Origin: a virus
IMG/VR virus record: IMGVR_UViG_3300044614_001077
Location: 1 to 24,845 of that record
Strand: one strand, 5' to 3'
Length of the DNA: 24,845 nucleotides
How positions within the stretch are numbered: position 1 is the stretch's first letter; every line of letters starts with the position of its first letter. The translations under genes were made by a program, and so were the position numbers. The notes below the pieces were generated by a model. That model was given only the letters and a program-made list of their open reading frames with translations. It was not told the origin of the DNA and did not search any database. Below are positions 8,563-24,845 of this stretch, in pieces.

Positions 8563-10095
8563 TTAGAACTCAATAACAATTTTAATGTCTTCGATCTGAT
8601 CGTTTGCACGGGAGATCGGTCTTCTATTATCTATATAGATAACTTGTCCGCTGTCTTTTTGGATCTCTGGATCTGCATAACCAGCAGTAAATCTCATACC
8701 CAAATCATATTCAGTATTGTTGATAATTCTGTTGGATGCTCCAGGAACAGCAGGGAAGTTTACATCTGGTTGTCCACTTGCACCAGATGTTGCTCCAGTG
8801 ATAGTATTACTTCCAGAAAAATCATTTAGTGAACCAGTAATTTCTGGGAAAATACCATCAACTTTATTTTGATAGTATTTTAGGACTTTTGTTGTAGAAT
8901 CCCATGATACAACTCTTCCTCTAGAAGTAATTGTTTGACCACCAACACTCTTAGATTGTGTGATAATCTCGTCTGGTAGGAAATTACCTTGAAATGTTGG
9001 TGGGAAAATAACTGCTCTGAGTGAAGTTAATGTTAGTTCATTTGTCAATTCACTAGTGCTATATCTTTTTGGATTTAATACTAGACCAATTCTTCTATAG
9101 TCGTTATCAATTGGGAAGTCTCCAGATCCTTCTGAGTATGATAATTTTGCATTTACCATGACTCTATATCCACCCAATTCATAAGCACTATTTGATCCAT
9201 GTCCACCTTGAGGGGGAATGATAACATCGATAGAACCACCACTTCCAGTGCCAATTCCATTTACATCATCAACTACGATCTTTCCGAATGTATATCCAGT
9301 ACCACCAGAAGTTACAGTAGCATTTACAATTCTACCACCATCAATTACTAGAGAAACTCTACCACCAATCCCATCACCATTGATGGGCACATTATCAAAT
9401 GTACCGTTGTTATAACCAGAACCAGCAGCAGAAATTACAACAGTATCAATTTCTCCTTGTACTGCGTTTGAGTTAACTGCGGAGTCATTTAGTACTGGAA
9501 TGTATTCTGACGAGAAGAACTTAAGAACCTGAGCAACAGGAATCGTGTACATATATTTCCATCTATATCCATCAGCAGTTGTGATAATAGATGTCGATGT
9601 TCCAGTTGGTTCAATAGTTGAAGGTCTACCATTAGGATCAGATGGTGAAGTGCCATTGTAAATGCACTTATATGCCTGATATGAAGAGTTTACAACATAG
9701 AAGTCAGCATCATATAATCTAGTAGAACCAGATGCAGCAGTCTTTGTAGGAGAATAGTCATGACGATACATATCGTAGATAAATCCCAGTCCACCAGTTG
9801 TCTTTTCTGGGGGAATCCAGTCAATTCTACGAACTACTTGAATACTGTCATTTGCAAGAACTCTCTTTAGCGATATCATGTCATCGTAGACATCACTATA
9901 CTCAGAAAAACTATCTACAGGTTCTGGTGGATTATTGTCGGATTCCCACTCTTGAGGTCTTCCGATAAATACATATAATCTGTCCCTAGTTGATCCTGCT
10001 TCCAAATCAGTTGCCTCTGGGTTTGGTCCTTCTAGAGACTTAATGAATTTTTGAGCAGCATATATTCTAAATTGATCAGTGAGAAGTGCTGACAT
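8563..10095 (-). CDS. gp8: baseplate wedge subunit gp8, enlarged
   Basis: This is the relative of T4 gp8, a dimer-forming wedge subunit of the hexagonal baseplate. Matching landmarks in order are: GRPQEW near residue 45 (T4 GRSEPW), RRIDW at 89-93 (T4 PRRDW), YQAYKCI at 139-145, IEP and DGYRWKYMYTIP at 161-186 (T4 IEPGDGYVWEYLFEIP), YRRIGLVLNPK at 333-343 (T4 FRQISIITNP), and SGQVIYIDNRRPI..ANDQIEDIKI at 482-505 (T4 SGEMIYMENRPPI..MDQTEEINI). The protein has 510 residues, against about 334 in T4. The extra length is two inserts, residues about 215-298 (Gly-rich GxGY module) and about 364-450 (SGATSGASG-type module). AGGA at 10107-10104, 8 bases before the ATG, supports the start. The T4 matches are from memory of the family, not an alignment run. 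Confidence 0.92.
   Translation of the reverse strand: MSALLTDQFRIYAAQKFIKSLEGPNPEATDLEAGSTRDRLYVFIGRPQEWESDNNPPEPVDSFSEYSDVYDDMISLKRVLANDSIQVVRRIDWIPPEKTTGGLGFIYDMYRHDYSPTKTAASGSTRLYDADFYVVNSSYQAYKCIYNGTSPSDPNGRPSTIEPTGTSTSIITTADGYRWKYMYTIPVAQVLKFFSSEYIPVLNDSAVNSNAVQGEIDTVVISAAGSGYNNGTFDNVPINGDGIGGRVSLVIDGGRIVNATVTSGGTGYTFGKIVVDDVNGIGTGSGGSIDVIIPPQGGHGSNSAYELGGYRVMVNAKLSYSEGSGDFPIDNDYRRIGLVLNPKRYSTSELTNELTLTSLRAVIFPPTFQGNFLPDEIITQSKSVGGQTITSRGRVVSWDSTTKVLKYYQNKVDGIFPEITGSLNDFSGSNTITGATSGASGQPDVNFPAVPGASNRIINNTEYDLGMRFTAGYADPEIQKDSGQVIYIDNRRPISRANDQIEDIKIVIEF
8746..9006 (-). other. second insert in gp8 (beta module, residues ~364-450)
   Basis: This segment lies between the conserved NPK block and the conserved C-terminal SGQVIYIDN block and has no counterpart in T4 gp8. 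It reads FQGNFLPDEIITQS...RGRVVSWDSTTKVLKYY...GSNTITGATSGASG, the same pattern (ExI..., VxSWxxxTxxL, TGATSGA) seen in modules of the DUF4815 protein, the 702-residue protein and the giant protein. Edges are approximate. Confidence 0.65.
9203..9453 (-). other. first insert in gp8 (Gly-rich GxGY module, residues ~215-298)
   Basis: This segment separates the conserved DGYRWKYMYTIP block from the YRRIGLVLNPK block. It contains GSGYNNG, VPINGDGIGGRVSLVIDG, GGTGYTFGKIVVDD and IDVIIPPQGGHG. The order and spacing match a segment of the giant protein at about 21660-21400 (GTEYEAG, VPISGDGAGGKVRITVDG, GKGYTTAFIDID, LRVVIPPRGTG), so the two are almost certainly copies of one module. Confidence 0.75.
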
Positions 10096-10142: not shown

Positions 10143-12251
10143 TTAAAAACTATCATTTCTCAATTGAGTATCATAACTAATAGAGAGTATTCTCCAAGAC
10201 GCTCCATTTTGACCTGTTAAAATTTCTCCACCAAGAATTGCTTCAGCAACAGCACCAGATCCATTTCCACCACTAAATGTAATTTGTGGTACATCTGTAT
10301 ATCCATAACCACCATTGGATAATGTTATTGTACTAACTTGGTCTGCCAACATCACTGCAGTAGCAGCTGCTGATGTTACTGAATTATTTTGGAATTGAAT
10401 TATAGGTGCAGAATTATAACCATTACCTCCAGAAATTACCTTAACACCAACTACTGTACTGTTATCGGAGAATTTATATAGTAATCCAATATCTTCATCT
10501 TGTGTATCATATGGTATTATTGAGTTGACAACGAGAGTTTGTGTATTTGGATTCCAAGATTCTACAGTAGCTCTAATTTGTGAATTTAATCCAGTCACAG
10601 TTTCTCCAATAACATAGTTAACTCCATTGAAATATGCTGGATTGCGAGTATCTAATTTAATAGTGAGACGAACGAAATGATCTACTCCCTCGTTCAGATT
10701 ACTTGCATCAACAACTGTAGCATTCTTGAATGGAATGCTAGAGTCTCTTACTTTATCTCCAACTTGGAATAATGTGGTATTTTGACCCCCTTGAGTTTCT
10801 TCAATACCATATAATGTTGATGGAATACCACCATCTAAATTAATTTGATCTTCATAGTCAGTTCCAGTGTTTATTAGATCTGGTAGACCATCTCCATCAC
10901 CATCCAATTCTGCAATATCCTCAAATGCAAAATCCAATAATACTGAGGGTATCTCTGTTAATCTGAAAATAATTGAACCTTCTTGGTCTATAACATTGTG
11001 TGGAATACTAAATGTTCCAGATGAATCTGATACCCCAGCATCAAACACTACATTGCTCTTTTCTCCAGGAAGTCCAGCATCAATAAATGCTAGTTCATCT
11101 ACTTGGAAAACAATGAATAATTCTTTTGTTAATGGATTCCAATCATATACTATAGCAATTTTATTATTTGCACTTTCTGTGCTCCTAATTAATCTATCTC
11201 CAACATTAAATTCATATGTTGTTATTCCAGTAACTTCATCATCTTGAGTGTCATCTAATACAACTCTCTGATCATATCTAAAGTTAATACCTCTAGTGCA
11301 ACCAGTTAATCTATTGACATCCTTTCCAGTATATCGTATTAATTCAGATCCCAATAAGATAACACCACTTCCTGGAAATGGATTGGTAGTAGACACATAA
11401 ATGTTTGTATCATTTCTATCTGCATCTATTGTAAGACCAGCAATATTGTAATATTCTAAATTATAAGATTGTCTATTTCTTGCAATTTTTTTTAATTTTG
11501 TTTTTCTGGCAAATACAACTCTAGGTGGAGTTACATATCCCCTTCCTGAATTTTGTAGAACAATATCGACAATTTGTCCTTGATTTATTACAGCTCTTGC
11601 CTTTGCTCCAACTCCACCTCCACCAACTAAAAGGACATATGGTTCTTTTAGATAGAACTGTCCAGGATTACTAATAGTGAAATTGGTAGATACAATCGAA
11701 GTATTGTCAATTTCTGCAACTCCTCTTGCACCTCTACCACCACCGCCACTAATGGACAAGAATGGTGGTTCCTCATATTCTCTACCTTCATTTAATATTG
11801 TCAATCCAGTTACTGTTCTTGGAGTCGCCCTAAGAACAGCACCATTTCCTTCTCCACCAATTATTTCAGCATCAACATCATAGAATTGTTTATCGCCACT
11901 TCTAAGCATTTTAATATAATCAATACTTCCATTTTCTTTTAATACAACTTCTGCATCTGCTGGATCTGGTAATTCAGTGGCGTTTTCTGGTATCTGTGGA
12001 AAGAATTTAACCCTCAGCGGATCATATCCCTCACCAGAATCAAGAACCTGCACTGAAACGATTCTGCCATTTTCTATAATTGGTTTTAGTACAGCATCTC
12101 GTATAGGAGTTCCACAATTTCTTATAGTCAATACTGGTGGTCTAGATTCACTATATCCAGATCCACCATTTTTAATGATGACGGAATCAACTCCCAAGTC
12201 ATCATTAAAAACAGGAACTATTACTGCTCCAGATCCAGGTCTAGTTGCCAT
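10143..12251 (-). CDS. Gly-rich repeat virion structural protein (702 aa)
   Basis: There is no named T4 counterpart. Residues 1-250 are about five copies of a beta module with the pattern V..(G/N)GxGY..PP.V...GGGGxGA.A.A..I..G.I (GSGY at 31, GEGY at 73, GREY at 156, GQFY at 197, GRGY at 236, with GGGG at 169 and 210). Residues 270-322 form a second module (DTNIYVSTTNPFP, GVILLGSELIRYTG, LTGCTRGIN). Residues 340-390 and 545-590 are GE/GD..(V/L)..(T/S)...A.V..WNP.T..L modules. Residues 600-675 return to two GxGY modules. Residues 450-458 (DGDGDGLPD) fit the DxDxDGxxD calcium loop. It has no signal peptide or membrane segment. Its position just before gp8 and modules shared with gp8 suggest a baseplate or fibre part. 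No strong Shine-Dalgarno sequence is visible; a late-promoter site lies 23 bases upstream of the ATG. Confidence 0.8.
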   Translation of the reverse strand: MATRPGSGAVIVPVFNDDLGVDSVIIKNGGSGYSESRPPVLTIRNCGTPIRDAVLKPIIENGRIVSVQVLDSGEGYDPLRVKFFPQIPENATELPDPADAEVVLKENGSIDYIKMLRSGDKQFYDVDAEIIGGEGNGAVLRATPRTVTGLTILNEGREYEEPPFLSISGGGGRGARGVAEIDNTSIVSTNFTISNPGQFYLKEPYVLLVGGGGVGAKARAVINQGQIVDIVLQNSGRGYVTPPRVVFARKTKLKKIARNRQSYNLEYYNIAGLTIDADRNDTNIYVSTTNPFPGSGVILLGSELIRYTGKDVNRLTGCTRGINFRYDQRVVLDDTQDDEVTGITTYEFNVGDRLIRSTESANNKIAIVYDWNPLTKELFIVFQVDELAFIDAGLPGEKSNVVFDAGVSDSSGTFSIPHNVIDQEGSIIFRLTEIPSVLLDFAFEDIAELDGDGDGLPDLINTGTDYEDQINLDGGIPSTLYGIEETQGGQNTTLFQVGDKVRDSSIPFKNATVVDASNLNEGVDHFVRLTIKLDTRNPAYFNGVNYVIGETVTGLNSQIRATVESWNPNTQTLVVNSIIPYDTQDEDIGLLYKFSDNSTVVGVKVISGGNGYNSAPIIQFQNNSVTSAAATAVMLADQVSTITLSNGGYGYTDVPQITFSGGNGSGAVAEAILGGEILTGQNGASWRILSISYDTQLRNDSF
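10878..10904 (-). other. calcium-loop motif DxDxDGxxD in the 702-aa protein
   Basis: Residues 450-458 read DGDGDGLPD, an exact fit to the DxDxDGxxD loop of EF-hand, dockerin and thrombospondin type-3 proteins. It lies between beta modules of a virion protein. The motif is clear; calcium binding is inferred. Confidence 0.6.
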
Positions 12252-12273: not shown

Positions 12274-12281
12274 TATTTATG
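12274..12281 (-). promoter_or_regulatory. late promoter CATAAATA overlapping the subtilase stop codon
   Basis: On the minus strand CA-TAA-ATA contains the stop codon (12279-12277) of the protease gene. It fits the NATAAATA form of T4-like late promoter. A start near 12268 would give a leader of about 17 bases for the 702-residue gene. Confidence 0.6.
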
Positions 12282-13938
12282 ATACCTTTCTTCTTTGTAT
12301 TGCAACTCTAGGATAGGTCATTCCAGAAGATTGTCTTACGCTATAATTAAATTTTGGATTTGCTACTCCAGTTTCTGGCCTATCTTTTTTGTAGTATGCG
12401 TATCTATTATTTGATGTGTTGCCTAGGGAAATATAGTCTCCAGCATTACCTCCAGTTGTAGAGATTTGACCAATTTTAGATGCACTGAATATATAATCTC
12501 TTGCAATAGTTTGATTTATATTTGGTAATTGCTCTGCTAAGCAAGCAAGTAATCCTGCTACTTGAGGACTTGACATACTGGTTCCAGATATTGAACCAAT
12601 TTTATATGAAGATGATCTTGGATCATTTGCTAGTATAATGCTAAATTCTGCTGCAGCAGTAGCATCATATACAGAAGACACAATATTTGATCCTGGAGCA
12701 TATAAATCTACTCTACTTCCATAGTTACTAAAAGTTGATTTATATTCTTGTGAAGTAGTTCCAATACTTCCAACACAAATACTATTTCCTGCAGCAGTTG
12801 GGGAAGATCCTCTACTGTGGAATATTTGTTGTCCAGATACAATGATAAAATTATCCCAATCTTGCATACTGCTAGTGGCACAATTCCAATAAGAATTTCC
12901 AGCAGAACCAACAATAATTACGCCATCATTAATTGCATCTTGAACATCAGCATCTAATGCAGCATATCTAGCAGGTATTTGATACAAATAATTATTAAAT
13001 GGAACTGGAACACCATTCTCTTCTAATGCCTGTTTCTTTACTGTATTAGATAATCCTGATAGTGTTGTAACAGTAGATCTGTACATTACTTGAAATATAT
13101 CAGCAAGTTGATAATTTGTTGTATATGAGTATCCCCAACTATTATTAACTACTGTTGGATTTCTTCTGCCAGTATTAGCATTTACATCTTTGTTTTTATG
13201 CCAATGTCTAATATAATCAAATATCACTAGCGCCCAATCTGAACCACCATAGTTACCACCTTGATAATTAAATTCCATGTTAAAGATTTTAGAATCTCTT
13301 GCCCATCCTTGAGTATTCCCAGCAACAGTTCCAGCAACATGAGTTCCATGGTTACTGCTTATGTTGGAATAATTATATGTTCCAGTAGTAGAAATACCAA
13401 GTATAGAACTATACTGAAACCAATCAATTTGATTTACTCTGGTTCCACCAGTGCCATCATCATTTATTGCAAATTCTGGATGTGATGGATTTATGTGGGC
13501 ATCTACAATTACTACATCTACATTTTTGCCAGAGCTAGTTGTCTTTATATTTGCAGACCTTTGAGTAAATGCACTATTTGTACCCCATCCAGCAGCCTGT
13601 CCACCTTCAGTTATTCGGAGTAACCCCCAATTTTTATCAGAAGAATCAATTGTCGAATTCTTCTCAAATACTCCAGTTTGTGTCCAGAATGGTGTTACAC
13701 TAAGTCCTAGTTCACTTGGTAGTAATTCTACAGCAAGAACTCTAGGATCATTCCTTAGAGATTCTGCTTCTTGCTCCGTCAAACTATAATGAGTATTTCT
13801 ACTTATATCTCTTCTCAACTTGCAAGAAACTTTTCTATTGGGAATATATAAATCCCCACCAGGAGTTTCCATATCATCATAAAATTGCTCTAGATCATCA
13901 AATTTTTTTAATGTAACTACATATATACTTTTCATCAT
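12277..13938 (-). CDS. subtilisin-like serine protease (S8) with I9-like propeptide
   Basis: The 553-residue protein has an intact subtilase core: Asp146 in VVIVDAHINPSHPEF, His197 in SSNHGTHVAGTVAG, oxyanion Asn348 in VGSAGNS, and nucleophile Ser454 in GTSMSSPQVAG. The Asp motif is DAH instead of the usual DTG or DSG. Residues about 3-75 (SIYVVTLKK ... LTEQEAESLRNDPRVLAVELLP) resemble an inhibitor I9 propeptide, so it may be made as a zymogen. There is no signal peptide and no membrane segment, unlike secreted subtilases. The C-terminal 100 residues carry no domain I know. The first ATG (13938) forms an ATGA overlap with the fibre gene; the second ATG (13935) is 4 bases from the GAGG at 13943-13940 and may be the true start. 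It lies among virion genes, so it probably acts in virion maturation or is carried in the tail to cut host surface protein; neither is shown. Confidence 0.9.
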   Translation of the reverse strand: MMKSIYVVTLKKFDDLEQFYDDMETPGGDLYIPNRKVSCKLRRDISRNTHYSLTEQEAESLRNDPRVLAVELLPSELGLSVTPFWTQTGVFEKNSTIDSSDKNWGLLRITEGGQAAGWGTNSAFTQRSANIKTTSSGKNVDVVIVDAHINPSHPEFAINDDGTGGTRVNQIDWFQYSSILGISTTGTYNYSNISSNHGTHVAGTVAGNTQGWARDSKIFNMEFNYQGGNYGGSDWALVIFDYIRHWHKNKDVNANTGRRNPTVVNNSWGYSYTTNYQLADIFQVMYRSTVTTLSGLSNTVKKQALEENGVPVPFNNYLYQIPARYAALDADVQDAINDGVIIVGSAGNSYWNCATSSMQDWDNFIIVSGQQIFHSRGSSPTAAGNSICVGSIGTTSQEYKSTFSNYGSRVDLYAPGSNIVSSVYDATAAAEFSIILANDPRSSSYKIGSISGTSMSSPQVAGLLACLAEQLPNINQTIARDYIFSASKIGQISTTGGNAGDYISLGNTSNNRYAYYKKDRPETGVANPKFNYSVRQSSGMTYPRVAIQRRKVS

Positions 13939-15077
13939 GCCTCAAGTTGAAGGACTGTTAAAGTAACTGAAATGGATGCTGCAGACCCAGATTTATTTAC
14001 GATCTTTAAGTAAATATTTTCTGATGGAGTTTGATCATCATTAAATCCAATTGCAACTGGAGTCATTGCTTGAGTTGCTGCCGCTGTGGTTATAACCTCT
14101 GCGACTACTCCAGAACCTGGAATTGGATCTGTAGTTTCAGATCTTCCTGCATCTGCTGTCCTAGAAACTGTTGATGTGTAAATTGTAACCCAAGCAGCAG
14201 CACTTGTTGTTATTTTCAGTAGAGCATAAGTCTTAAACCCAATAACTGCCACATCAGATGATGCATTATTTGCTATAGTACCAGTTGATACTGTAAGTGT
14301 TCCTCTTTGCTGAAGAGAACTTCCTCCTCCACCACCTGAAATATCGTCAATTGAATTTACCCAAGTTGTTCCATCATATTTTAATACCTGTCCAGTAGTT
14401 GGAGCAGTTACTTCAACATTAGATAAGTCCTGTATATTTACTGGAACATTAGGTTTATTTGTTAGATCGTTGTAACTACCAGAGAAAAGTGTGGGTTTAC
14501 TTAACAGATCGTTATAAGAACCACTGGTCGCCACAGCAGATAATGTTGGTTTATTACCAAGATCATCATATAGACCACTAGTAGCAACGACAGATAACGA
14601 TGGTTTGTTTAGAATTCTCGCTACACCAGAAGAAGCATTCCAATCAGTATTAACCTGAGCAGCAGGTATTGTTGGTTTATTCGTTAAATCATTATAATTT
14701 CCCGAGAATAGTGCAGGTCTACCAGTAAGATCGCTATACGAACCACTGGTTGCCACAGCAGATAATGTTGGTCTATTTAAGATTTGAGATATTCCAGAAG
14801 TGGCATTCCAATCAGAATTCACTTGAGCCGCTGGTATTACAGGTCTATTGATAAGATCATTATAATTTAGTGCAGCATTAATAAATGCCACCCCATTTGA
14901 TCTTAATACCTGACCAACAGTAGATGATGTCTCAATATCAATTTTAATATTGGTGCCATCTCCGAGTTTTTCATATACCTCGTTAAGCATTGAATTTAAC
15001 TTTTGACCAGCAGATCTCAGAGAGTCGCCAGTCCCGTCATTCGGAGATGCTCCAACATTTATTAATTGTTTTGCCAT
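13935..15077 (-). CDS. tail-fibre-like protein with YNDLxNKP repeats (380 aa)
   Basis: The N-terminus (LINVGASPNDGTGDSLRSAG, then QKLNSMLNEVYEKLGDG) is a short virion-anchoring motif seen at the head of many phage fibre proteins. Residues about 70-215 are repeats: YNDLINRPVIPAAQVNSDWNA, ILNRPTLSAVATSGSYSDL, FSGNYNDLTNKPTIPAAQVN and so on, a pattern typical of trimeric beta-helical or triple-stranded fibre shafts. Then come a linker GQVLKYDGTTWVNS, a GGGGG hinge near residue 250, and a C-terminal beta domain of about 125 residues with no named match, possibly the tip. It has no membrane segment. AGGAG at 15093-15089, 11 bases before the ATG, supports the start, and a late-promoter site overlaps the preceding stop codon. 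The gene overlaps the protease start by 4 bases, so the two are translationally coupled. It is likely a short accessory fibre on the baseplate. Confidence 0.8.
   Translation of the reverse strand: MAKQLINVGASPNDGTGDSLRSAGQKLNSMLNEVYEKLGDGTNIKIDIETSSTVGQVLRSNGVAFINAALNYNDLINRPVIPAAQVNSDWNATSGISQILNRPTLSAVATSGSYSDLTGRPALFSGNYNDLTNKPTIPAAQVNTDWNASSGVARILNKPSLSVVATSGLYDDLGNKPTLSAVATSGSYNDLLSKPTLFSGSYNDLTNKPNVPVNIQDLSNVEVTAPTTGQVLKYDGTTWVNSIDDISGGGGGSSLQQRGTLTVSTGTIANNASSDVAVIGFKTYALLKITTSAAAWVTIYTSTVSRTADAGRSETTDPIPGSGVVAEVITTAAATQAMTPVAIGFNDDQTPSENIYLKIVNKSGSAASISVTLTVLQLEA
14440..14875 (-). repeat. fibre-shaft direct repeats
   Basis: This is the coding repeat region of the 380-residue fibre. 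The clearest DNA copy pair is 14518-14553 and 14740-14775: 36 bases with only two differences (both C/T), 222 bases (74 codons) apart, encoding LSAVATSGS-type units. YNDLxNKP, IPAAQVN and DWNA(T/S)SG units alternate with these. The near identity at DNA level suggests recent duplication or gene conversion. Confidence 0.8.
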
Positions 15078-15100: not shown

Positions 15101-15108
15101 TATTTATG
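15101..15108 (-). promoter_or_regulatory. late promoter CATAAATA overlapping the giant-gene stop codon
   Basis: On the minus strand CA-TAA-ATA contains the stop codon (15106-15104) of the giant gene and fits the NATAAATA late-promoter form. A start near 15095 would give a leader of about 18 bases that still carries AGGAG for the fibre gene. Confidence 0.62.
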
Positions 15109-18100
15109 AAGCATCAAAAGTTATAAATGATAAATCAAATGTGGTAGCAGATGAATCAAATGATCCTTGCGTTTCTTCAGGATCTGGAATTTCTGTTAGA
15201 ATTTCAATTTCTGGATATAAGTATCCAATTCCAGCATCTATAACATCAACTCTAGAAATACCAACTTGTGCCTTTACTTGTCCATCAAAACCAGTTGGTG
15301 AACTTAATGAAACTACAGGAGTTGAGGTATAACCCTCTCCGCCAGAAGTTAACTGTACAGTTCTAATTCTTCCTCTAATTAGATTTGCTAATGCTTCACC
15401 ATTTCTTCCAAAGACCGAACCAAGATAATCAAATGTGATCAATGAGTTTGATGATTCGACAATAGCAACAGTTCTATCTCTATCTTCAGATTCAATTTCA
15501 AGTTGGTCTCCAGATTCAATTGGTGGAATTACTGTAGCAGCAATAACATCAGCATCAGATCCAATATACGAGTATGCAACAAAGGTACTACCAGCACGAG
15601 GAACTTCCGCAAAGTTGATTCTTGAACCAACAATCTCAAATGCTACTCCTGGTTCTTGAATAACTCCATTTAATGATACAATGATATTATTTTCTGGTCT
15701 AATATTTGTAGACTGAACTCCATCTGTAATTGTTAATGAATAGAATACTTCATTTAATTTTAAGTTGAAGCTGCTTCTTAGTGAGTCAAACTCGAATGAA
15801 ATATCATCTAGTTTTCTCAATTTACCAACATAAGTTCCGTGGAAAGTTGCTCCTAATTCTGGTGCCTCTAAGAATTCAATAACATCACTGAATGTATTAT
15901 ATGATACTCCAGCTGGTTGTAGAATACCATTAATGTAAACTAGAACATAACCATCAGAATCTGGGAAGTATGAGATTCCATTATTAGATGTCAACTTAAA
16001 TGTTGTTTGTGTGCCATCAAAACCTCTGAAGGATCTTGAAATTCTACCAACAACTTCTTTAACAGTGACAATACCAGATCTATAATCATTAGACACTAAC
16101 TGAGAATACTGTGTAAATGTTCCCTTAACGCCACTCAAATATAATCTATAGTTTGATCCAATTTGGAGAATTCTTTCAACATATCCGTATGCAATTTCGG
16201 ACTGTACAGAAACAGATTCTACACTTGCGAATCCACTTGGATACTGTTCGGAACCAGCAAAATATGCAATAGTTTCTCCAACCTCAAAATTATCATCATC
16301 TAGTAAATTGGAGATGTATAGATATTTTTGACCTCCATTCTGCTCATACTTGAGTAAAACTGCTTCTTTTCCTTGAGGAATATTGTCCGTAACATTAACA
16401 ATCTTTTCCCCAACCACAAATGTCGTAGATTCTTCATTTGGAAGATCTATCGTTAAACGATATACATTTGTAGTTTTTACAAGACTACCAATAGATACCT
16501 GAGTTCCTTCATAACCTAAAGTATCAATATAGATGTCACTCGTCGAAGAATATACTACATTAGATACATGGAATTTATCATTAAGTGATTCAGTATCTAG
16601 TACTAACTTACCACCAGAAGTATCAAGTACTGGAGATGTTGTTCTTTCATATAGAGATACCGTGGATTCGGAATCAGATTTTGGTGCTCTGATGTAATCT
16701 CCAGTGGAGAAACTTCCAAGGACATTCTTAAGTTGAACTCTATTATCAATAGAAACTATAGTTGCAGTGAAATTATCTTCATTTAAGAGAACATTGTTCA
16801 CATTAAATGGACCGCTTTGGATTGCAACATCAATATAGTTAATAGTTTCGGAATAGTATACCGAATATACCTTACAAATTCTTGATGGTTGACCTAAAAC
16901 TGTAAGTTCCTGATTAATATCGAATGTTTCTACTGCTTCAGCAAAGTTAACTCTAAATCTCTTTAGAATAGTTTTTACATCTGCTCTATTGATAATGATT
17001 GATGAAATCTCACCATATTCCTGAGAAGTTGTGCCATAGATATAATCTCCTTCAGTAATACCACCCTTAACTGGAGTTATTGGATCTCTAGTTGGATATA
17101 CAATAGAAGGAATTACAATTGAATTTTCTGGAACAATAGCATTATCATCAATATATGATGAATTATTTAATGTTCCTAATAGTATGCTCATATTATCATC
17201 AATAAATGACTGCATACTGGTCAAATTGCCCCCAGTTATTGAAATTGCAGAGTCTGTATATGAATAGAAACCAGCAGCACTAGAAGGAGATTGTAAAGTT
17301 TCTGCAACTGCTTGCTTCATCAAATCTCTAACTTGCTGGTATGCATAAATGCTCTGAATTAATTCTCCCTGTAGTGAAGTTACAGTTCCAGTTGCAGCAT
17401 CAATATATGCAACAGTAGATTCGTAAATTCCACTATTGCCATCTGTTAATAGATCATATACAATAGCATCAACAATATATCCAATGTCTCTTATGCACTT
17501 AGCATTTCCACCTGGGATTGAGAATCCTGGATAATTGTTAAGTGTTCTCTGAATAGTTTCATTCTGAATATACAACTTATTAAACATAATAAGTTTAGCA
17601 GCATCTCTCTTCACCTGTGTAGTTGGGATGAGAATATCAATTGCCTTTTGGAATAGAACATCAATCGCTGATTTAATATCTGCACATCCACCACCATATG
17701 TTCCATCATCTAATATAATTGTTAGATCCTTATATTTTGATGTTGTTATTCCATATAGTGAAGCATATTCTGTAGTTCCAGTAACAATCCAATTGTTAAC
17801 TGCATATTGGCAAAGTTCATTTGCCTTTTCCATTGCAACTACAGTAGGTAGAAGTTCATTCTTGATATACTCGATGTTATCATCGGATCCAACATAGAAC
17901 TTCATTGCATTGATAGTATTAACATCTCCTCCAGATACTAGATCTGAAATAATAGATGGTAAAATATACTGTACCAGATCTCTCTTACATGTTGCAGAAG
18001 AACCACCAGGATAGTTAAATGCCTTATACTGAACTCCATTTAGGGTATAAGTAAATTGACTATCAATATGAGCGATAGTCTCATCAGCAATGAAGTTTCT

Positions 18101-21100
18101 ATTGAACCAGATTAGATCACCAGCATCTCTATAAACATTTCCTGTAGGTGCAATCGTGTCATTAATGGAATTCCATAATGTGTCAATCTGAGCACGAACA
18201 TCAGCACAGTCTCCAAGATCAATTGTGATATCAACTGGAGGAATTGGGAATCTTTCAGTGTATTCTGGAGTTTCACTCAATTGACCAATTACTGCTTGCT
18301 GACAAAGTTCATTCATTTGAGTGTGGGTATAAACACTCTGGAGGACTTGTCTCTCAATAAATCTTAGACCACCATTACTATCAAGATAGAATCTTGCAGC
18401 AGTGATTGACTCATAGTTTCCACCATTTTCAATATCAGAAATTACAGCTTGTAGTAGTAGTGATAAATCTAATTTACATCTATTTGTTCCTTCGGTAGAT
18501 GATGCGCTATCTCCAGGTATAACTAGATCTGGATAACGATTTTTTAGTCTACCTGCTGCCTCATCGATAATATAAGCAGAATTTAGTCTTAGTAGATTTG
18601 CAGCATCTCTAAATCTGTGTTGAGCATCAGAGTAGATTTGATCAGTAGTAATAATTTTATCAGAAGTATCAATTTGCTTGACAACAAATGGAATAGCGAA
18701 ATATGTCGATACTTTTGCTGTTATTGAGTTATAAGAAATATTCTCTCCGACTATAAAGTTTCCAGTCTTATCTCCAACATAAATTGTTTTTAATGCATAA
18801 TTGACACCAATAATGTCTGCTGATACTCCACTAATTGATCCAAGTATAGTATTTCCTATTTGGAAATTACCTCCACTCAAATCATAATATGTTAGTTTTC
18901 TAACCTCAATAGACTCATCTTCACTAAAATCGTCAGTTTCATTTCTATATTCTACTTTAATATTTTGTACAAATTCTCCTTGTAGTAACTCTGCAGTTGG
19001 ATTTGTGTAATTTAACAGTGTATTCTGAATTTCCTCAAAGTCCACAAATGTACTTTCTACCTTGATATCAGAATCATCAATATCAACTACTTCAGCAACA
19101 CTTCTACTAATATCATCAACAATAGTATTTGGATTTGATGGATTTACGATTCTGTTGAATAGTAAACCATAGAATCTACTTGGGTCACTGATGGATACTG
19201 AAGATACTGGATCAATCTTAATACTGGTTAAGATCTTATGGTTCGCTGTTGAAGTTTGACCAATAATGATCTCATTTGCTACAAAAGTTCCAGAAATTGA
19301 ACTTAGAATGAGTCTCTTGATTTGTGGATTCCAAAATACAACTTCTCCAACTGCAGATGATGTTGATCCAACAACTTCTTCTCCGATTTGGAAATCACCA
19401 ACGAATGAGTAATCTGAATTGATTACGATGTATACATTAGGATCTGTGTATGGAGCTAGTGATATAACTTTGGCAACAATTCCAGTTTGTGCTGAAATTA
19501 TAAAGTCATCAATATCAATGTTTAGTAGTCCAGAAGGAGAATCATAAGTACCAGAAGTTTTGCTAATGACAATTTTATTTGTTATTACATTTGACTGTGG
19601 TTCTAAATTAATTTCTTCTACTACTGCAGTTTGCTTACTTAAGTTAGTAAGTTTTTCTTGGAATCTGTATATATTGCTGTTAATAATAGATTCAACAGAG
19701 ACTATGTTTGCATTTAATCCAGTTGCAGGTGATATTACAGTTTCTGTATTTAAGAAGGTTCCCTGAATATTGAATACTGTTAGTGTGGTTGATGTTGAAG
19801 AAACAACCGTCGCTGTTGCATTAGATACAAGACCTCTAATAGTATTTCCAAGTTCTGGGATAATGCCACTAATATTATTAATTGTTATTAATTTTGTTTC
19901 CTCAAACTGAAGTTCAACCTCTGCATAACTAATTTTGGTTGGTGCAGGAGGTGGCTCACTGAAGATGATATTTCCTTGCTGAACATTAAATGAACTTCCA
20001 GGTGCCTGAACAACTCCATTTATGGTAATCATAAATTGACTTGTCTGTGCAACAACAATATTTCCATCAATTGTTAGTGGGAAAATTCTTCTTTCTCCAT
20101 CAAACAGAGTGGAAATATCATCCAATTTCTGAACAACAGATGTTAGAATTTCCTCAGAAGATGTTAGTCTCTTATTTCTGAACAGAACTTGAGTATTATC
20201 AAATTCACTGTAGATTGGTTCTGCTAGAGCAAAGTTATCTATGTGAGAAACTACAGAACTCTCAATTAGATTTACACTCTTGACTAACTCAAAGTCTGTT
20301 TTATTAGTTAATCCCTTGTTCTCTCCAGTAACTCCAATTTCACCAAAAATCTTAAATCCAGCTGGGTGTACATTATCAATTACGATATTTTTCCATTCTT
20401 CAATAGAGATAGGACTCTTAATATTATATGAGAACGCTTGGTATAGGTAAGAGTCTTGAACTCTTTGTACAATTTCACTTGGTTTGCCAACATCATCTAG
20501 GAATTTGCCAGTTGTTTTTGTAATAGAATCAACTTCTAGAATACCTCTAGCAATACTAATATCACCAATAGTACCACTTGCCTTAGAAATTGATCCAGTT
20601 ACATTTTGACCAATCTCAAAATCACCACTATAGTCAACTAATTTGAGTAGTCTTGGACCAATTTGCCATCCATCATTATTTGATACTATTCCAATTGCAG
20701 TTGCATTATCGATGTTTAGACCCTGGAATACTGTTTCTCCAGATAGGAATCTTGCAGTTTCTAGTACAGATTCTGCCTTACCACCGAAGGAATCTGTTAG
20801 AATGATCTGTCTTCCAGTACCATTATTAACAAATGAGATAAAGTTTCCAGTTTCTGCATCAACTGGTGTTAGTGCAATACGAAGCTGGTCATCTTCTAAA
20901 CCAGATGTTGTACCAGAAATTGCATAGTAAGTCTGATTTGGATTGATGAAACCGAATGATGTTAGTGGGAAGTCAGCACCTTCTCCAAGGTCTCTGATAT
21001 CAAACTTAACCTCAGCACCATTTGGAATTCCATGTGGGAATGCAAACTGGAATAACTGTAGGTCAATGTTTACAACATATGTGAAACTAGACTTTAATTC

Positions 21101-24100
21101 GACAGTTGGTTCTGTTGTATATCCAGATCCAGGATTCTTAATTACAATAGCATTAATTCTACCATTTCTTAGGATTGCTTCTGCAATTGCACCAGTTCCT
21201 CCACCACCAGTAATTACAACTTCTGGAGGTGAAGTATATCCAGTACCAGGATCAATCACCTTGATGCTGCTTAATACGCTAGTACTTGTTAACTGTAGAT
21301 TAACTGGGAATGTGATTTCTGGTCTTAATGTATAGTCATGAGTATAATCAAAACCAAAGTTGTTGTTCTTTAGTCTCTTAATTTTACCAACACTACTTCC
21401 CTTAACAAAAATAGAAGCACCAGTTCCTCTTGGTGGAATTACTACTCGTAACTCAGCACCAGATCCAGTTAGTTGTGGACCAAGAATACCAGGAATTGCA
21501 TCAATATCAATAAATGCTGTAGTATATCCTTTTCCTGGATCAGTTACAATAACTTCAACAATTTGACCTGCAGGATCTGTACTTCCATCTACTGTAATTC
21601 TTACTTTTCCTCCAGCTCCATCTCCAGAAATTGGAACTCCAAAGTATTCCCCTGCTTCATATTCTGTTCCAGGATCTATAATTTCTACTCTTTCAATCTT
21701 TCTGGAAGATTCAATATCGGTAATGATAGGTAGTTTTTTATAGAAACCACCACCATTAATGAGTCTAATAGAACCGATAGAACCTACTGCCTTTTTAGAT
21801 GTGGTGGTATATGAAGATAATGCTGCAACTGCTGCCTTCTCTGGCTCAAATTTGATTGGGAAAATCAATTGATTTGCACCAGTTGTAATAGTTGCACCTC
21901 CAAGTTCCTTAACCTCAAATGTACCAATATAAGGACTTGGTAGAACATCAATGTAAGAATTATCTCCAACAGGACTTTCAGATCCAATTCTTGCTGGGTC
22001 TGCATAGTAACTGATATTTGATACATCGTCAGTTACCTTAAATGAAATGAATGGAGAGTTTCCTGGCTCATCTATACCTGGAGTTCCTTTTCTAACAATA
22101 TTCTTGAAAGTATATTCAATTTTGTTTAGATTATCTCTGTAGAAAGATAAGAAGTGTCCTAGGTTTGATGGATCAGATGTATCAAAGGTATACTGCTGTC
22201 CATAAATTAATCTAATGATAGGATGCTTGACATAAACACTAAACGATGTTCCAGATCCAATAACTGAAGATGGTGATGTCTTAATGCTGAAAATAAATTC
22301 TTTCTTATTAAGAACACTACTTACATAGTAAGTACCATCAGTATTGGAATATTCAGGTGATGATTGTAGAGAAATAATATCTCCAATATTCAAGTAATGT
22401 GATGTAGCAGATCTTACAAATAATTGATCAGTATTTGCTGATGTGTTAATTTGCAATACTTTCTTCAGATTTGTAGTTAATGTAATTTGAGTTACTGCGG
22501 TTAGTCCTGAAATAGTTAATTGCTTCTTATCAGAACTAAATGAGAAGAATGAACTTCCAAGGATATATACAGATCCTCTAGAGTATGAAGATCCAGAAAT
22601 AACTTCATCAACTCTTACTTGATAATCATCATCCGAATAATCCTTAAAGATTGCAGATAATCCTACAGGAATATCAAAGACAAATGTTCCTGGAGTAGTA
22701 GCATCTTCATTAGCAAAGATGTATTTTGGTATCTCATTTACAGCATTATCGGATGTCTCTAATGATCCGCTGCTATTGACAAAAGTACCATTAACAGAAG
22801 AAATTAGTATCTGATTATCTTGTGGAATTACATCAATAATTTTTGCTGTTGCAATAGAGACATTAGATGAATTCTTTTGAGTAAGAGTCGTTCCTTTTGT
22901 AAAATTAAATTCCTGATTCAATGTTAGTCTTCTTACATTATCAACTTTAGATGTTGCGAATGTTCTAAAGAAGAATTTATCATACGACTTAGCAGATAGA
23001 ATTGGTTTTCTTCCTCCAGGGGAAGGAATAGTTGCAGTTCTAGTTGACCAAGTATCAAGAGTGGATACTATAGTTTGTGTATTTTGATCTAAGAACGATA
23101 ATACATCAGTAAAGTCTAATACTTGGAATCCTTCATTAGCTAAGATATAATTAGAAATATTTGTTTCTAATGCAATATTATTAAGTGTATATAATGTTCT
23201 GGAAATTTCTAGATTTGCATTTGTGAATTGAATATCACCAAGTCTGACTGAATCTGAGTTTTTGTCTAGTTTAATAGAGTATGATTTTGCAGTTCCATGG
23301 TCATATGGAGTTAATGCTGCTGATGGAACAGATGATGGTCCAGAATATGTAATAGAGTAATTACTATATCTAATTTCATCAACTCTCATGGGCCAAGAAG
23401 AATATGATGTAGTAGATCCAAACTCAATTGTAGTTGGATTCATATCTACACTTTCACTTATGGTTGCAATTTGCGTACCATTCCAAATTAATTTATATGT
23501 TGTAATTCCACTAGAGAACTCTTTCTTTAACGCAACATGGACCCATCCAGATGTTAAATCTGTAATATAAGTAGATGCAGCAGTAAGTTGTGAAATTGAT
23601 GCTGCATCATTACTTAATCTAACTTTTCCGTATGTGGATGGAGAACTAGTATCTGCAAATACAGCAACTCTTACCCCATTAGTTCCATTGGTGCATCTAA
23701 TTAATAGTGGAACTTTTGCAGTAGCTGCAGTATCCCACTTAATCCATTTTTCTAGAGTCCAGGATGAAGATGCAATACTTGTGGTTATTGACATCTTAGC
23801 ACTTTGACTCATATTATAAGCATATGTTCCATACTTAGAGGTTGTTCCAATAGAAACAGTTCCTGAAGTTACAATATTAGAAACTCTACCCAATCTATCT
23901 ACATAATCAGATCCATCGAATAAGAATTGAGTTCTATTTGGATAGTATCTTCCAGTTATAGTTGGATCTCCAGATACATCAGACACACATGACACTACAT
24001 CGTATCCATATGAATAATCTGTTGTTTCAATCTTATTTGATTTAATTACATTACCAAGATAGTTGATCTTTGAGATAATTACATATTTCGCATTATTTGC

Positions 24101-24845
24101 ATCTGTTATAGAACATGCAATATTGATCTCTCCAAATACATCAATAGATGTTTTTGCTGTCTGTAATGTTTGTGCTTGAGATATAGTATATGAATTTGCC
24201 CACTTGATTTCACCATCAGATAGGAGTCTTAGAACAGAAACTTTATTTTTGGTATTTGATGAGATTGTTCTTTGAGTTGCAGTAATATACAACTCATCAT
24301 ATTCATCAATAATAAGCGTTAGATCCTCGAAGTCACTATCAAGTGCCCCATAGGTCTTTGCCCAATCTACGACAATTTTATTAGCAATAATATTTGCTTT
24401 TGATATGTAAATGCTTGTAGATGACTTACCTAAGAGATATATTTCATTCTTTGAGTTTACTTTAATCTGGAAGAACTTATCTTCTGTTGAGGGGGAAGTG
24501 ATCTTTCTTCTAGTTAATGTATCTCCATTAGATGCAATGTACATAACTATTGCATCATTAGTGTGATTAGTGTTTGTTGATGTATAACCACAAATTAGAA
24601 TATTTCCATTGTAGATTGTGATGTCTGTAGCATAATCTCCTCTACTTGCACCACTAATACCACCATATTGCCTTTGCCAATTAATAGTGGATGAAGTTCC
24701 AGAAGAATTTTCTGTTAATTTGACAACAATGATATCTGGGTTAAATGAATTTGATAGTATTGGATTTGGTCTAGTAGTACCAATTATGTAAATTGAGTTG
24801 CCATCCTTAGCAATACCATTAAATACGCAATTCTTAGTTTCTTGA
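15104..24845 (-). CDS. giant modular virion protein, 5' end beyond window (at least 3246 aa visible)
   Basis: The frame is open from the stop at 15106-15104 to the window edge. The ATG at 24544 is not the start: 100 sense codons of the same repeat pattern continue upstream (including IYIIGTT, INWQRQYGG and ILICGYTS). In order the protein shows: propeller-like blades (24844 to about 23960); a LamG/concanavalin-like domain (about 23930-23300); beta modules including YTFDTSDPSNLGHFL near 22200; Gly-rich GxGY modules (about 21770-21080); an HGIPNGAEV module near 21050; an FDG...INGVVQAPG module (20110-19900); GExVxG-type modules (20630-18700); three Cys-bearing helical repeats (18610-17160); more GExVxG-type modules (17060-16240); two INGxxQxPG modules (16050-15560); and GxGY modules at the end. 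I see no gp7 homology, though T4 gp7 lies next to gp8. It is probably a large baseplate or side-fibre protein that meets the host; the exact location is inferred. Confidence 0.88.
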   Translation of the reverse strand, partial: QETKNCVFNGIAKDGNSIYIIGTTRPNPILSNSFNPDIIVVKLTENSSGTSSTINWQRQYGGISGASRGDYATDITIYNGNILICGYTSTNTNHTNDAIVMYIASNGDTLTRRKITSPSTEDKFFQIKVNSKNEIYLLGKSSTSIYISKANIIANKIVVDWAKTYGALDSDFEDLTLIIDEYDELYITATQRTISSNTKNKVSVLRLLSDGEIKWANSYTISQAQTLQTAKTSIDVFGEINIACSITDANNAKYVIISKINYLGNVIKSNKIETTDYSYGYDVVSCVSDVSGDPTITGRYYPNRTQFLFDGSDYVDRLGRVSNIVTSGTVSIGTTSKYGTYAYNMSQSAKMSITTSIASSSWTLEKWIKWDTAATAKVPLLIRCTNGTNGVRVAVFADTSSPSTYGKVRLSNDAASISQLTAASTYITDLTSGWVHVALKKEFSSGITTYKLIWNGTQIATISESVDMNPTTIEFGSTTSYSSWPMRVDEIRYSNYSITYSGPSSVPSAALTPYDHGTAKSYSIKLDKNSDSVRLGDIQFTNANLEISRTLYTLNNIALETNISNYILANEGFQVLDFTDVLSFLDQNTQTIVSTLDTWSTRTATIPSPGGRKPILSAKSYDKFFFRTFATSKVDNVRRLTLNQEFNFTKGTTLTQKNSSNVSIATAKIIDVIPQDNQILISSVNGTFVNSSGSLETSDNAVNEIPKYIFANEDATTPGTFVFDIPVGLSAIFKDYSDDDYQVRVDEVISGSSYSRGSVYILGSSFFSFSSDKKQLTISGLTAVTQITLTTNLKKVLQINTSANTDQLFVRSATSHYLNIGDIISLQSSPEYSNTDGTYYVSSVLNKKEFIFSIKTSPSSVIGSGTSFSVYVKHPIIRLIYGQQYTFDTSDPSNLGHFLSFYRDNLNKIEYTFKNIVRKGTPGIDEPGNSPFISFKVTDDVSNISYYADPARIGSESPVGDNSYIDVLPSPYIGTFEVKELGGATITTGANQLIFPIKFEPEKAAVAALSSYTTTSKKAVGSIGSIRLINGGGFYKKLPIITDIESSRKIERVEIIDPGTEYEAGEYFGVPISGDGAGGKVRITVDGSTDPAGQIVEVIVTDPGKGYTTAFIDIDAIPGILGPQLTGSGAELRVVIPPRGTGASIFVKGSSVGKIKRLKNNNFGFDYTHDYTLRPEITFPVNLQLTSTSVLSSIKVIDPGTGYTSPPEVVITGGGGTGAIAEAILRNGRINAIVIKNPGSGYTTEPTVELKSSFTYVVNIDLQLFQFAFPHGIPNGAEVKFDIRDLGEGADFPLTSFGFINPNQTYYAISGTTSGLEDDQLRIALTPVDAETGNFISFVNNGTGRQIILTDSFGGKAESVLETARFLSGETVFQGLNIDNATAIGIVSNNDGWQIGPRLLKLVDYSGDFEIGQNVTGSISKASGTIGDISIARGILEVDSITKTTGKFLDDVGKPSEIVQRVQDSYLYQAFSYNIKSPISIEEWKNIVIDNVHPAGFKIFGEIGVTGENKGLTNKTDFELVKSVNLIESSVVSHIDNFALAEPIYSEFDNTQVLFRNKRLTSSEEILTSVVQKLDDISTLFDGERRIFPLTIDGNIVVAQTSQFMITINGVVQAPGSSFNVQQGNIIFSEPPPAPTKISYAEVELQFEETKLITINNISGIIPELGNTIRGLVSNATATVVSSTSTTLTVFNIQGTFLNTETVISPATGLNANIVSVESIINSNIYRFQEKLTNLSKQTAVVEEINLEPQSNVITNKIVISKTSGTYDSPSGLLNIDIDDFIISAQTGIVAKVISLAPYTDPNVYIVINSDYSFVGDFQIGEEVVGSTSSAVGEVVFWNPQIKRLILSSISGTFVANEIIIGQTSTANHKILTSIKIDPVSSVSISDPSRFYGLLFNRIVNPSNPNTIVDDISRSVAEVVDIDDSDIKVESTFVDFEEIQNTLLNYTNPTAELLQGEFVQNIKVEYRNETDDFSEDESIEVRKLTYYDLSGGNFQIGNTILGSISGVSADIIGVNYALKTIYVGDKTGNFIVGENISYNSITAKVSTYFAIPFVVKQIDTSDKIITTDQIYSDAQHRFRDAANLLRLNSAYIIDEAAGRLKNRYPDLVIPGDSASSTEGTNRCKLDLSLLLQAVISDIENGGNYESITAARFYLDSNGGLRFIERQVLQSVYTHTQMNELCQQAVIGQLSETPEYTERFPIPPVDITIDLGDCADVRAQIDTLWNSINDTIAPTGNVYRDAGDLIWFNRNFIADETIAHIDSQFTYTLNGVQYKAFNYPGGSSATCKRDLVQYILPSIISDLVSGGDVNTINAMKFYVGSDDNIEYIKNELLPTVVAMEKANELCQYAVNNWIVTGTTEYASLYGITTSKYKDLTIILDDGTYGGGCADIKSAIDVLFQKAIDILIPTTQVKRDAAKLIMFNKLYIQNETIQRTLNNYPGFSIPGGNAKCIRDIGYIVDAIVYDLLTDGNSGIYESTVAYIDAATGTVTSLQGELIQSIYAYQQVRDLMKQAVAETLQSPSSAAGFYSYTDSAISITGGNLTSMQSFIDDNMSILLGTLNNSSYIDDNAIVPENSIVIPSIVYPTRDPITPVKGGITEGDYIYGTTSQEYGEISSIIINRADVKTILKRFRVNFAEAVETFDINQELTVLGQPSRICKVYSVYYSETINYIDVAIQSGPFNVNNVLLNEDNFTATIVSIDNRVQLKNVLGSFSTGDYIRAPKSDSESTVSLYERTTSPVLDTSGGKLVLDTESLNDKFHVSNVVYSSTSDIYIDTLGYEGTQVSIGSLVKTTNVYRLTIDLPNEESTTFVVGEKIVNVTDNIPQGKEAVLLKYEQNGGQKYLYISNLLDDDNFEVGETIAYFAGSEQYPSGFASVESVSVQSEIAYGYVERILQIGSNYRLYLSGVKGTFTQYSQLVSNDYRSGIVTVKEVVGRISRSFRGFDGTQTTFKLTSNNGISYFPDSDGYVLVYINGILQPAGVSYNTFSDVIEFLEAPELGATFHGTYVGKLRKLDDISFEFDSLRSSFNLKLNEVFYSLTITDGVQSTNIRPENNIIVSLNGVIQEPGVAFEIVGSRINFAEVPRAGSTFVAYSYIGSDADVIAATVIPPIESGDQLEIESEDRDRTVAIVESSNSLITFDYLGSVFGRNGEALANLIRGRIRTVQLTSGGEGYTSTPVVSLSSPTGFDGQVKAQVGISRVDVIDAGIGYLYPEIEILTEIPDPEETQGSFDSSATTFDLSFITFDAS
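15560..16050 (-). repeat. two INGxxQxPG beta modules in the giant protein
   Basis: Two tandem copies: FDGTQTTFKLTS...VLVYINGILQPAGVSY...IEFLEAPELGATF and FDSLRSSFNLKL...NIIVSLNGVIQEPGVAF...INFAEVPRAGSTF. A third copy lies at about 20110-19900 (FDGERRIFPLTI...FMITINGVVQAPGSSF...IIFSEPP). Confidence 0.75.
17160..18610 (-). repeat. three tandem alpha-helical repeats in the giant protein
   Basis: Each repeat starts RDA(A/G).L(L/I)..N..(Y/F)I..E (first base of the Arg codon at 18610, 18130 and 17608; periods 160 and 174 residues). It then has PG....C..D(L/I)...(I/L).(A/S)I..D(L/I)..G and ends with the GxCAD(V/I)..(A)IDxL(W/F) block followed by (A/I)PT. Copies 1 and 2 have three cysteines each (RCKLD or TCKRD, ELCQ, DCAD or GCAD); copy 3 keeps only the first (KCIRD). 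Confidence 0.8.
21400..21660 (-). other. Gly-rich module of the giant protein shared with gp8
   Basis: It reads GTEYEAGEYFGVPISGDGAG, then GGKVRITVDG, GKGYTTAFIDID and LRVVIPPRGTG. The same order and near-identical motifs occur in the first insert of gp8 (9453-9203). Confidence 0.75.
23300..23930 (-). other. LamG/concanavalin A-like lectin domain in the giant protein
   Basis: The segment begins FLFDGSDYVD and contains SWTLEKWIKWD, PLLIRCTNG, GWVHVALKKE, TYKLIWNGTQIAT and MRVDEIRYSN, the usual order of landmarks in LamG-type jelly-roll lectin domains (about 200 residues). This fold commonly binds glycans, but binding is not shown here. Confidence 0.75.
23960..24844 (-). other. propeller-like (SBBP-type) repeats in the giant protein
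   Basis: About five units of roughly 50 residues follow the pattern (N/D)..IYIIG.T....(D)..V.K....G.I.W...YG...D.(A)..I. Examples are GNSIYIIGTT, INWQRQYGG, NILICGYTS, NEIYLLGKS, VDWAKTYGA, DELYITATQ and IKWANSYT. The array continues past the window edge. Confidence 0.6.

Follow-up and report, generated by a model that had tools for sequence, protein, structure and literature searches.

On balance, we favour the reading that the subtilase analysed here is an exchangeable cargo protein, in many phages a peptidase, which a short C-terminal tail would dock onto the C-terminal domain (CTD) at the tip of a phage fibre and which would serve to cut a protein of the host surface. The window, i.e., the whole stretch of DNA analysed (24,845 nt; a virus record of 24.8 kb), comes from a relative of the cyanophages that is itself a T4-like phage, and its gp7-, gp8- and DUF4815-like baseplate genes all lie on the minus strand. 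What appears to be new is the CTD/tail module with its interchangeable S8, S53 and non-protease cargo; by its predicted fold, the enzyme itself is an ordinary subtilase. The correlation behind the fibre, CTD and tail half of the mechanism is a genomic one and is strong, and from it we infer direct binding of the tail to the CTD. The fibre-tip position of the protease, its proteolytic activity and its host-surface substrate are likewise inferred. The features of the window to which the text refers are as follows.

12277..13938, minus strand: S8 subtilase gene, 553 aa, putative cargo of the fibre CTD (open reading frame with ATG start and TAA stop)
13705..13938, minus strand: prodomain, residues 1-78 (beta-alpha-beta-beta-alpha-beta in the model; Pfam I9 below cut-off)
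12469..13686, minus strand: catalytic domain, approximately residues 85-490 (mature proteinase-K-like chains align from model residue 85)
13501..13503, minus strand: codon of catalytic Asp146, in the DAH motif (homologue alignments)
13348..13350, minus strand: codon of catalytic His197 (homologue alignments)
12895..12897, minus strand: codon of oxyanion Asn348 (homologue alignments)
12577..12579, minus strand: codon of catalytic Ser454, in GTSMSSP (homologue alignments)
12280..12381, minus strand: C-terminal tail, residues 520-553 (pLDDT <50 at 530-536 and 538-552)
12307..12336, minus strand: tail motif RQSSGMTYPR, residues 535-544, the proposed docking peptide (motif counts, tail HMM)
13935..15077, minus strand: fibre gene (380 aa), sharing 4 nt with the start of the protease gene
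14754..15071, minus strand: N-terminal domain of the fibre for baseplate attachment, T4 gp9/gp10-like, residues 3-108 (T4_gp9_10_N), swapped in other phages
13938..14315, minus strand: fibre CTD, a jelly roll and the constant partner of the protease (model pLDDT 92.6)

The subtilase and its prodomain

The window protease was matched by Pfam Peptidase_S8 with an E value of 7e-28 (98.1 bits; curated cut-off, 21.8 bits) and is a member of PHROG 9158 (E 2e-101), a family without assigned function that is here tied to the CTD and the tail. The catalytic and oxyanion residues had been placed at Asp146, His197, Ser454 and Asn348 in an earlier note made from the sequence, and these positions proved correct, being identical in 28/28 and 68/68 homologues in two alignments. 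Apparent changes of the Ser in a 168-row alignment were misalignments around a large insert, and the GTS was intact there. The AlphaFold2 model had a mean pLDDT of 90, and its catalytic part aligned with proteinase-K-like enzymes at Z scores of 35 to 37 (best, 5wsl; Z 36.7, 2.4 Å, 277 residues), i.e., the modelled protease has the subtilisin fold.

Like the proteinase-K-like subtilases (MEROPS S8A; aqualysin, Meiothermus keratinase, and proteinase K), the window protease has the D-H-S order, the oxyanion Asn, the fold and an N-terminal prodomain. Unlike them, it has a phage fibre partner and D-A-H in place of D-S/T-G, and it has no evident signal peptide, in line with the earlier note (maximum Kyte-Doolittle 15-residue mean over the first 75 aa, 0.25). 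A prodomain conserved like the catalytic domain and a conserved, disordered YPR tail also set the window family apart. The DAH motif had been called unusual, which holds with regard to those enzymes, but it is a family trait and not a one-off: among 68 rows, the +1 position was A, G, S, E or D, and +2 was His in 52.

Loss of the triad in related phages had been named as evidence that would speak against a tail protease. The CTD-linked set retained the triad with a single exception, a divergent CTD-linked subtilase of S-CAM1 (L052, 6350-8605, annotated as a tail fibre protein), where Glu replaces the catalytic Asp (VTLESGS) and the Ser and His motifs are intact. Catalysis is thus under selection.

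The N-terminal region had been described as the I9-like propeptide of a zymogen. The predicted topology fits this description, as residues 4-72 of the model form beta-alpha-beta-beta-alpha-beta, the order expected of subtilase prodomains, but the sequence gave little for an I9 assignment. Pfam I9 fell short of its 21.2-bit cut-off on the window prodomain (E 0.27, 12.4 bits) and matched 7 of 68 family members at E ≤ 1, and a prodomain profile searched against the PDB gave only sub-threshold matches to subtilase prodomains (E 0.8). Mean column entropy over the 68 rows was 1.42 for the prodomain vs 1.49 for the catalytic domain, indicating equal conservation within the family. Since a large propeptide is missing ahead of the catalytic domain in the S53 proteins that replace the subtilase in the same slot (see below), the zymogen stage is likely to serve folding only.

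The fibre CTD and the proteins behind it

The overlap between the fibre gene and the protease gene that had been noted earlier was found to be 4 nt (ATGA). Across the viral contigs, every protease homologue with upstream sequence was preceded by a gene whose product terminates in the common CTD of ~130 aa (hmmsearch, ≥128 bits); three edge-truncated loci lacking upstream sequence (L031, L103, and L106) were excluded from this count. The gap between the two genes ranged from -11 to +8 nt in this survey, and in a larger set the commonest gap was +1 nt (87 of 150), with a few automatic calls down to -32. The proposed survey of adjacency to the fibre gene thus upheld the link to the CTD at every such locus, but not to one particular fibre or genomic site. 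The products of the CTD genes ranged from 143-144 aa, where they consist of the CTD and nothing else, to more than 1,200 aa, and their N-termini were as different as MAKQLINVG, MAINFP, MSKILA and others. In the window, S-CREM1 and S-H38, the pair was embedded among the baseplate genes, but it lay near tRNA, hli or tail-fibre genes in Sf-FR1, S-WAM2, S-RSM4, S-CAM4 and others. A protease in a baseplate operon, as the gene had been described, is therefore true of the window, but the conserved unit is the fibre CTD with its downstream protein.

When the scan was reversed and started from the CTD (n = 84), the next gene encoded an S8 protein in 78 cases, a member of an unannotated ~770-aa family in 5 and an S53 sedolisin in 1. 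From the forward and reverse surveys together, we therefore conclude that the protease needs the CTD but that the converse is not true. Natural fusions of S8 and CTD were looked for, and none were found. Because a fold search with the CTD returned generic jelly rolls only (best Z 8.0), no function was transferred to it.

The S53 sedolisin-like proteins in the CTD slot came from phage contigs (L243, 6398-7675; also L291-L300); a search of the collection of phage records gave no match to them. The L243 protein aligned with kumamolisin (1t1g; E 9e-31) with ENTLD, SGDSG and GTSAS in register, so that the Glu/Asp/Asp/Ser motif positions are present and this replacement cargo is, as judged by its sequence, an S53 sedolisin. 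The non-protease cargo (600-930 aa, ~770) was found in L007 (4578-6881), L012 (3178-5508) and L050 (6383-8680), with further members in L051 (6380-8206), L054 (6374-9163) and L039 (708-2678). These proteins begin with VNGGNTGWS..DVxxALExAF, have no Pfam match as a family and have a cupredoxin-like domain in common with long subtilase homologues; CTDs with this cargo also occur in S-H9-1, Sf-CH1b, S-BM3, ACG-2014i and S-SCSM1. In a CTD tree based on few columns, S53-linked CTDs appeared in three well-supported places among the S8-linked ones, a pattern suggesting that cargo has been exchanged repeatedly on the CTD platform. A common fibre tip thus seems to receive different enzymes and adhesins by exchange among the phages.

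S8 homologues in P-SSM2, S-T4, S-SCSM1 (protein 228) and Sf-CH5 (L003, L004, L013, and L014) lack the YPR tail, and the fibre end domain with which they are paired is another conserved one, with the motif TPExGxxGxxTYRxxRxxxL. This domain is a possible second type of socket. Another C-terminal tail, RxI[IL]FNPF, was seen in just 2 of the 4 members of this subgroup.

The C-terminal tail motif and its proposed role

AlphaFold2 left the tail motif of the window protease disordered although it is conserved, with R520, P543 and R544 of the tail invariant in 68 rows; the typical consensus after the catalytic domain is RPxSGx[YFW]PR. With [YFW]PR required to lie 60 aa or more beyond the catalytic Ser, the tail was present in 140/141 S8 proteins with a CTD and 0/6 without one, and in 9/9 S53 proteins with a CTD and 0/3 complete ones without (0/5 counting incomplete ones), statistics that are limited by the relatedness of the sequences. 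The 140/141 tally uses corrected Ser anchors for three members, all of which have the motif. The sole CTD-linked S8 protein without a tail was L267, whose match to the loose motif lies inside the catalytic domain; in control ORFs, the loose motif occurred in 9/516. The CTD-linked S53 proteins form one clade in which CTD linkage and tail coincide, and their co-occurrence therefore counts as one event and not ten.

A tail HMM trained on the S8 tails alone was run on 2,450 other ORFs and recovered the CTD-linked S53 proteins (best E 5e-7), followed by small proteins located behind non-protease cargo (S-SCSM1_233, S-H9-1, Sf-CH1b, L281, L264, and L054). It also recovered ORF090 of P-SS2. The absence of the tail from L267 counts against docking, as do the CTDs of S-CRES1 and L048, which had no tail protein nearby. 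As the surveyed loci were centred on CTDs, near-complete genomes offered an unbiased test of the motif. The strict motif had 2 matches in the whole S-SCSM1 genome (228.8 kb, six frames), both in CTD operons, and 1 match in P-SS2 (100 of 107.5 kb, 93%), again in the CTD operon; each match lay within three residues of the C-terminus.

In the mechanism that we propose, the baseplate rim would bear a fibre with a gp9/gp10-like base and the jelly-roll CTD at its tip. The CTD would offer a docking face to which the flexible RPxSGx[YFW]PR-type tail of the downstream protein binds, and would act as a platform for exchangeable cargo, usually an S8 peptidase, sometimes an unrelated S53 sedolisin, and in a third form a non-protease protein together with a separate small tail-bearing protein. 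Upon host contact, the peptidase may trim a surface protein (S-layer, surface glycoprotein or receptor shield), and this trimming would let the phage bind or inject. Opening of the host surface, one of the roles raised in the earlier note, with a putative substrate of this kind, is our favoured reading of what the protease does. We give even chances to the more general proposal that a jelly-roll fibre end domain (socket) and an RPxSGx[YFW]PR peptide (plug) exchange tip proteins, including two classes of peptidase, in tailed phages of cyanobacteria and others, comprising myoviruses and at least one siphovirus.

The proposed arrangement resembles the polysaccharide depolymerases of phage tailspikes and fibre tips in that an enzyme is tied to a fibre, is replaceable and presumably acts on the host surface, but here the enzyme is a peptidase and a separate protein, carrying a short tail motif common to unrelated cargo instead of being fused to a spike. 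In the gp37/gp38 system of T4-like phages, a separate adhesin protein sits on the fibre tip. The gene order is similar, with a fibre gene followed by that of a protein thought to sit on the tip, whereas the cargo here is an enzyme or belongs to a different family and has the RPxSGx[YFW]PR motif; no similarity to gp38 was found. In the open-access literature on subtilases in cyanophage virions and phage tails, we found no description of the CTD/tail module. If the proposal is true, an interchangeable peptidase is borne on a fibre tip by many environmental phages, and fibre-tip proteins, which are mostly unannotated, can be found with the short tail as a sequence handle. The way in which T4-like cyanophages pass proteinaceous host surfaces would become testable, and the socket domain and plug peptide would amount to a natural rule for swapping fibre-tip functions.

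Virion proteins, alternative explanations and distribution

In purified P-SS2 particles, the CTD protein ORF087 was detected with an average of 11 peptides and the tail protein ORF090 with 4 peptides, and two proteins following ORF087 were also present (PMC2784084). The S-SCSM1 record marks as virion proteins the CTD protein, the non-protease cargo and tail protein 235, as well as the divergent S8 protein 228 and its fibre-like neighbour 227. We counted 48 such marks in this record vs the 45 proteins reported by mass spectrometry, and the terminase, the short tail fibre and several hub genes are unmarked. The virion-marked S8 protein belongs to the subgroup that lacks the YPR tail and is paired with the other fibre end domain, which counts against our main reading. 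In S-CREM1, the closest isolate, only 14 virion proteins were detected (PMC9964418). The suggestion of the earlier note that the protease is built into the tail is consistent with these data: it belongs with the fibre and is probably part of the virion, given the constant CTD linkage and the virion mark of S-SCSM1_228.

The protease could instead be a maturase of its own fibre, cutting the fibre or the CTD during assembly with no need to stay in the virion; the freeing of a fibre, another option of the earlier note, is a rival too. An obligate neighbour, translationally coupled and co-inherited with the CTD, would also suit an enzyme-substrate pair, but we regard a maturase as unlikely: cutting is not a requirement of the CTD, since there are CTDs that lack any protease and have a different protein in its slot, the slot is also filled by an S53 enzyme, which is expected to differ in cleavage preference, and the tail motif on non-proteases is left without a role. 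It is about as unlikely, in our view, that tail and CTD are an assembly device in which the CTD or fibre is a folding or assembly partner and the tail marks incorporation elsewhere than at the CTD. The correlation of tail and CTD is by itself no proof of contact, and there is a weak resemblance of the CTD to the beta-jelly-roll domain that Tk-SP subtilisin carries as a fusion (Z 7.0); a Z score near 7 is, however, at the level of a common fold, and where the gene encodes nothing but the 143-144-aa CTD, no shared partner other than this domain is present, so that direct contact between tail and CTD is the simplest explanation.

Processing of the giant baseplate neighbours, which the earlier note had proposed, is very improbable, even though the protease sits between a gene of 3146 aa or more and the gp8/DUF4815 genes in the window, S-CREM1 and S-H38. 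The gp8-like gene matches 649 phage records compared to 58 for the protease, which means that assembly of the baseplate does not normally involve the protease; the pair, moreover, lies in the tail-fibre region of most named relatives, away from gp7/gp8/DUF4815, and maturation of the giant proteins is disfavoured on both counts. There is a similarly slim chance that the protease is a late cytoplasmic enzyme acting on host proteins and no part of the virion. The lack of a signal peptide would agree with this, but virion proteins need none, and the constant fibre linkage, the adhesin-like extensions and the virion mark of S-SCSM1_228 all argue against it.

Relatives of the protease were found in those 58 records of the phage collection (E ≤ 0.01), mostly from Synechococcus and Prochlorococcus phages, with identities from 62% (S-CREM1) down to about 23%. 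A relative is encoded by at least 588 stretches of viral contigs, one of them on a contig of 400 kb. As psbA was present in only 1 of 10 larger contigs carrying the protease, the family also extends beyond those cyanophages that bear psbA. A scan of bacterial genomes gave mostly generic subtilases and one close match, in a 'Rickettsiales bacterium' MAG (L137, NZHE01000019.1), where a CTD-protease cassette of the phage type lies on a contig binned to the bacterium; this is probably a phage contig. Some long homologues carry lectin-like or Calx-beta/Ig-like domains, and the accessory domain can stand before or after the tail motif. Subtilase domains also occur within giant virion proteins of about 1,800-2,100 aa in P-HM2 (L056, 5263-10758; T4-GC 519) and S-TIM54 (L057, 4021-10458).

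Three baseplate proteins of the window (8563-10095, 10143-12251, and 15104-24544) have in common a repeated element of the type GSGYTxPPxVxIxGGGGxGAxAxA in their translations, and the first two match the same PHROGs (701, 460, and 4406). At 2-787, a protein cut by the end of the record starts with the N-terminal domain of the major tropism determinant (Mtd_N).
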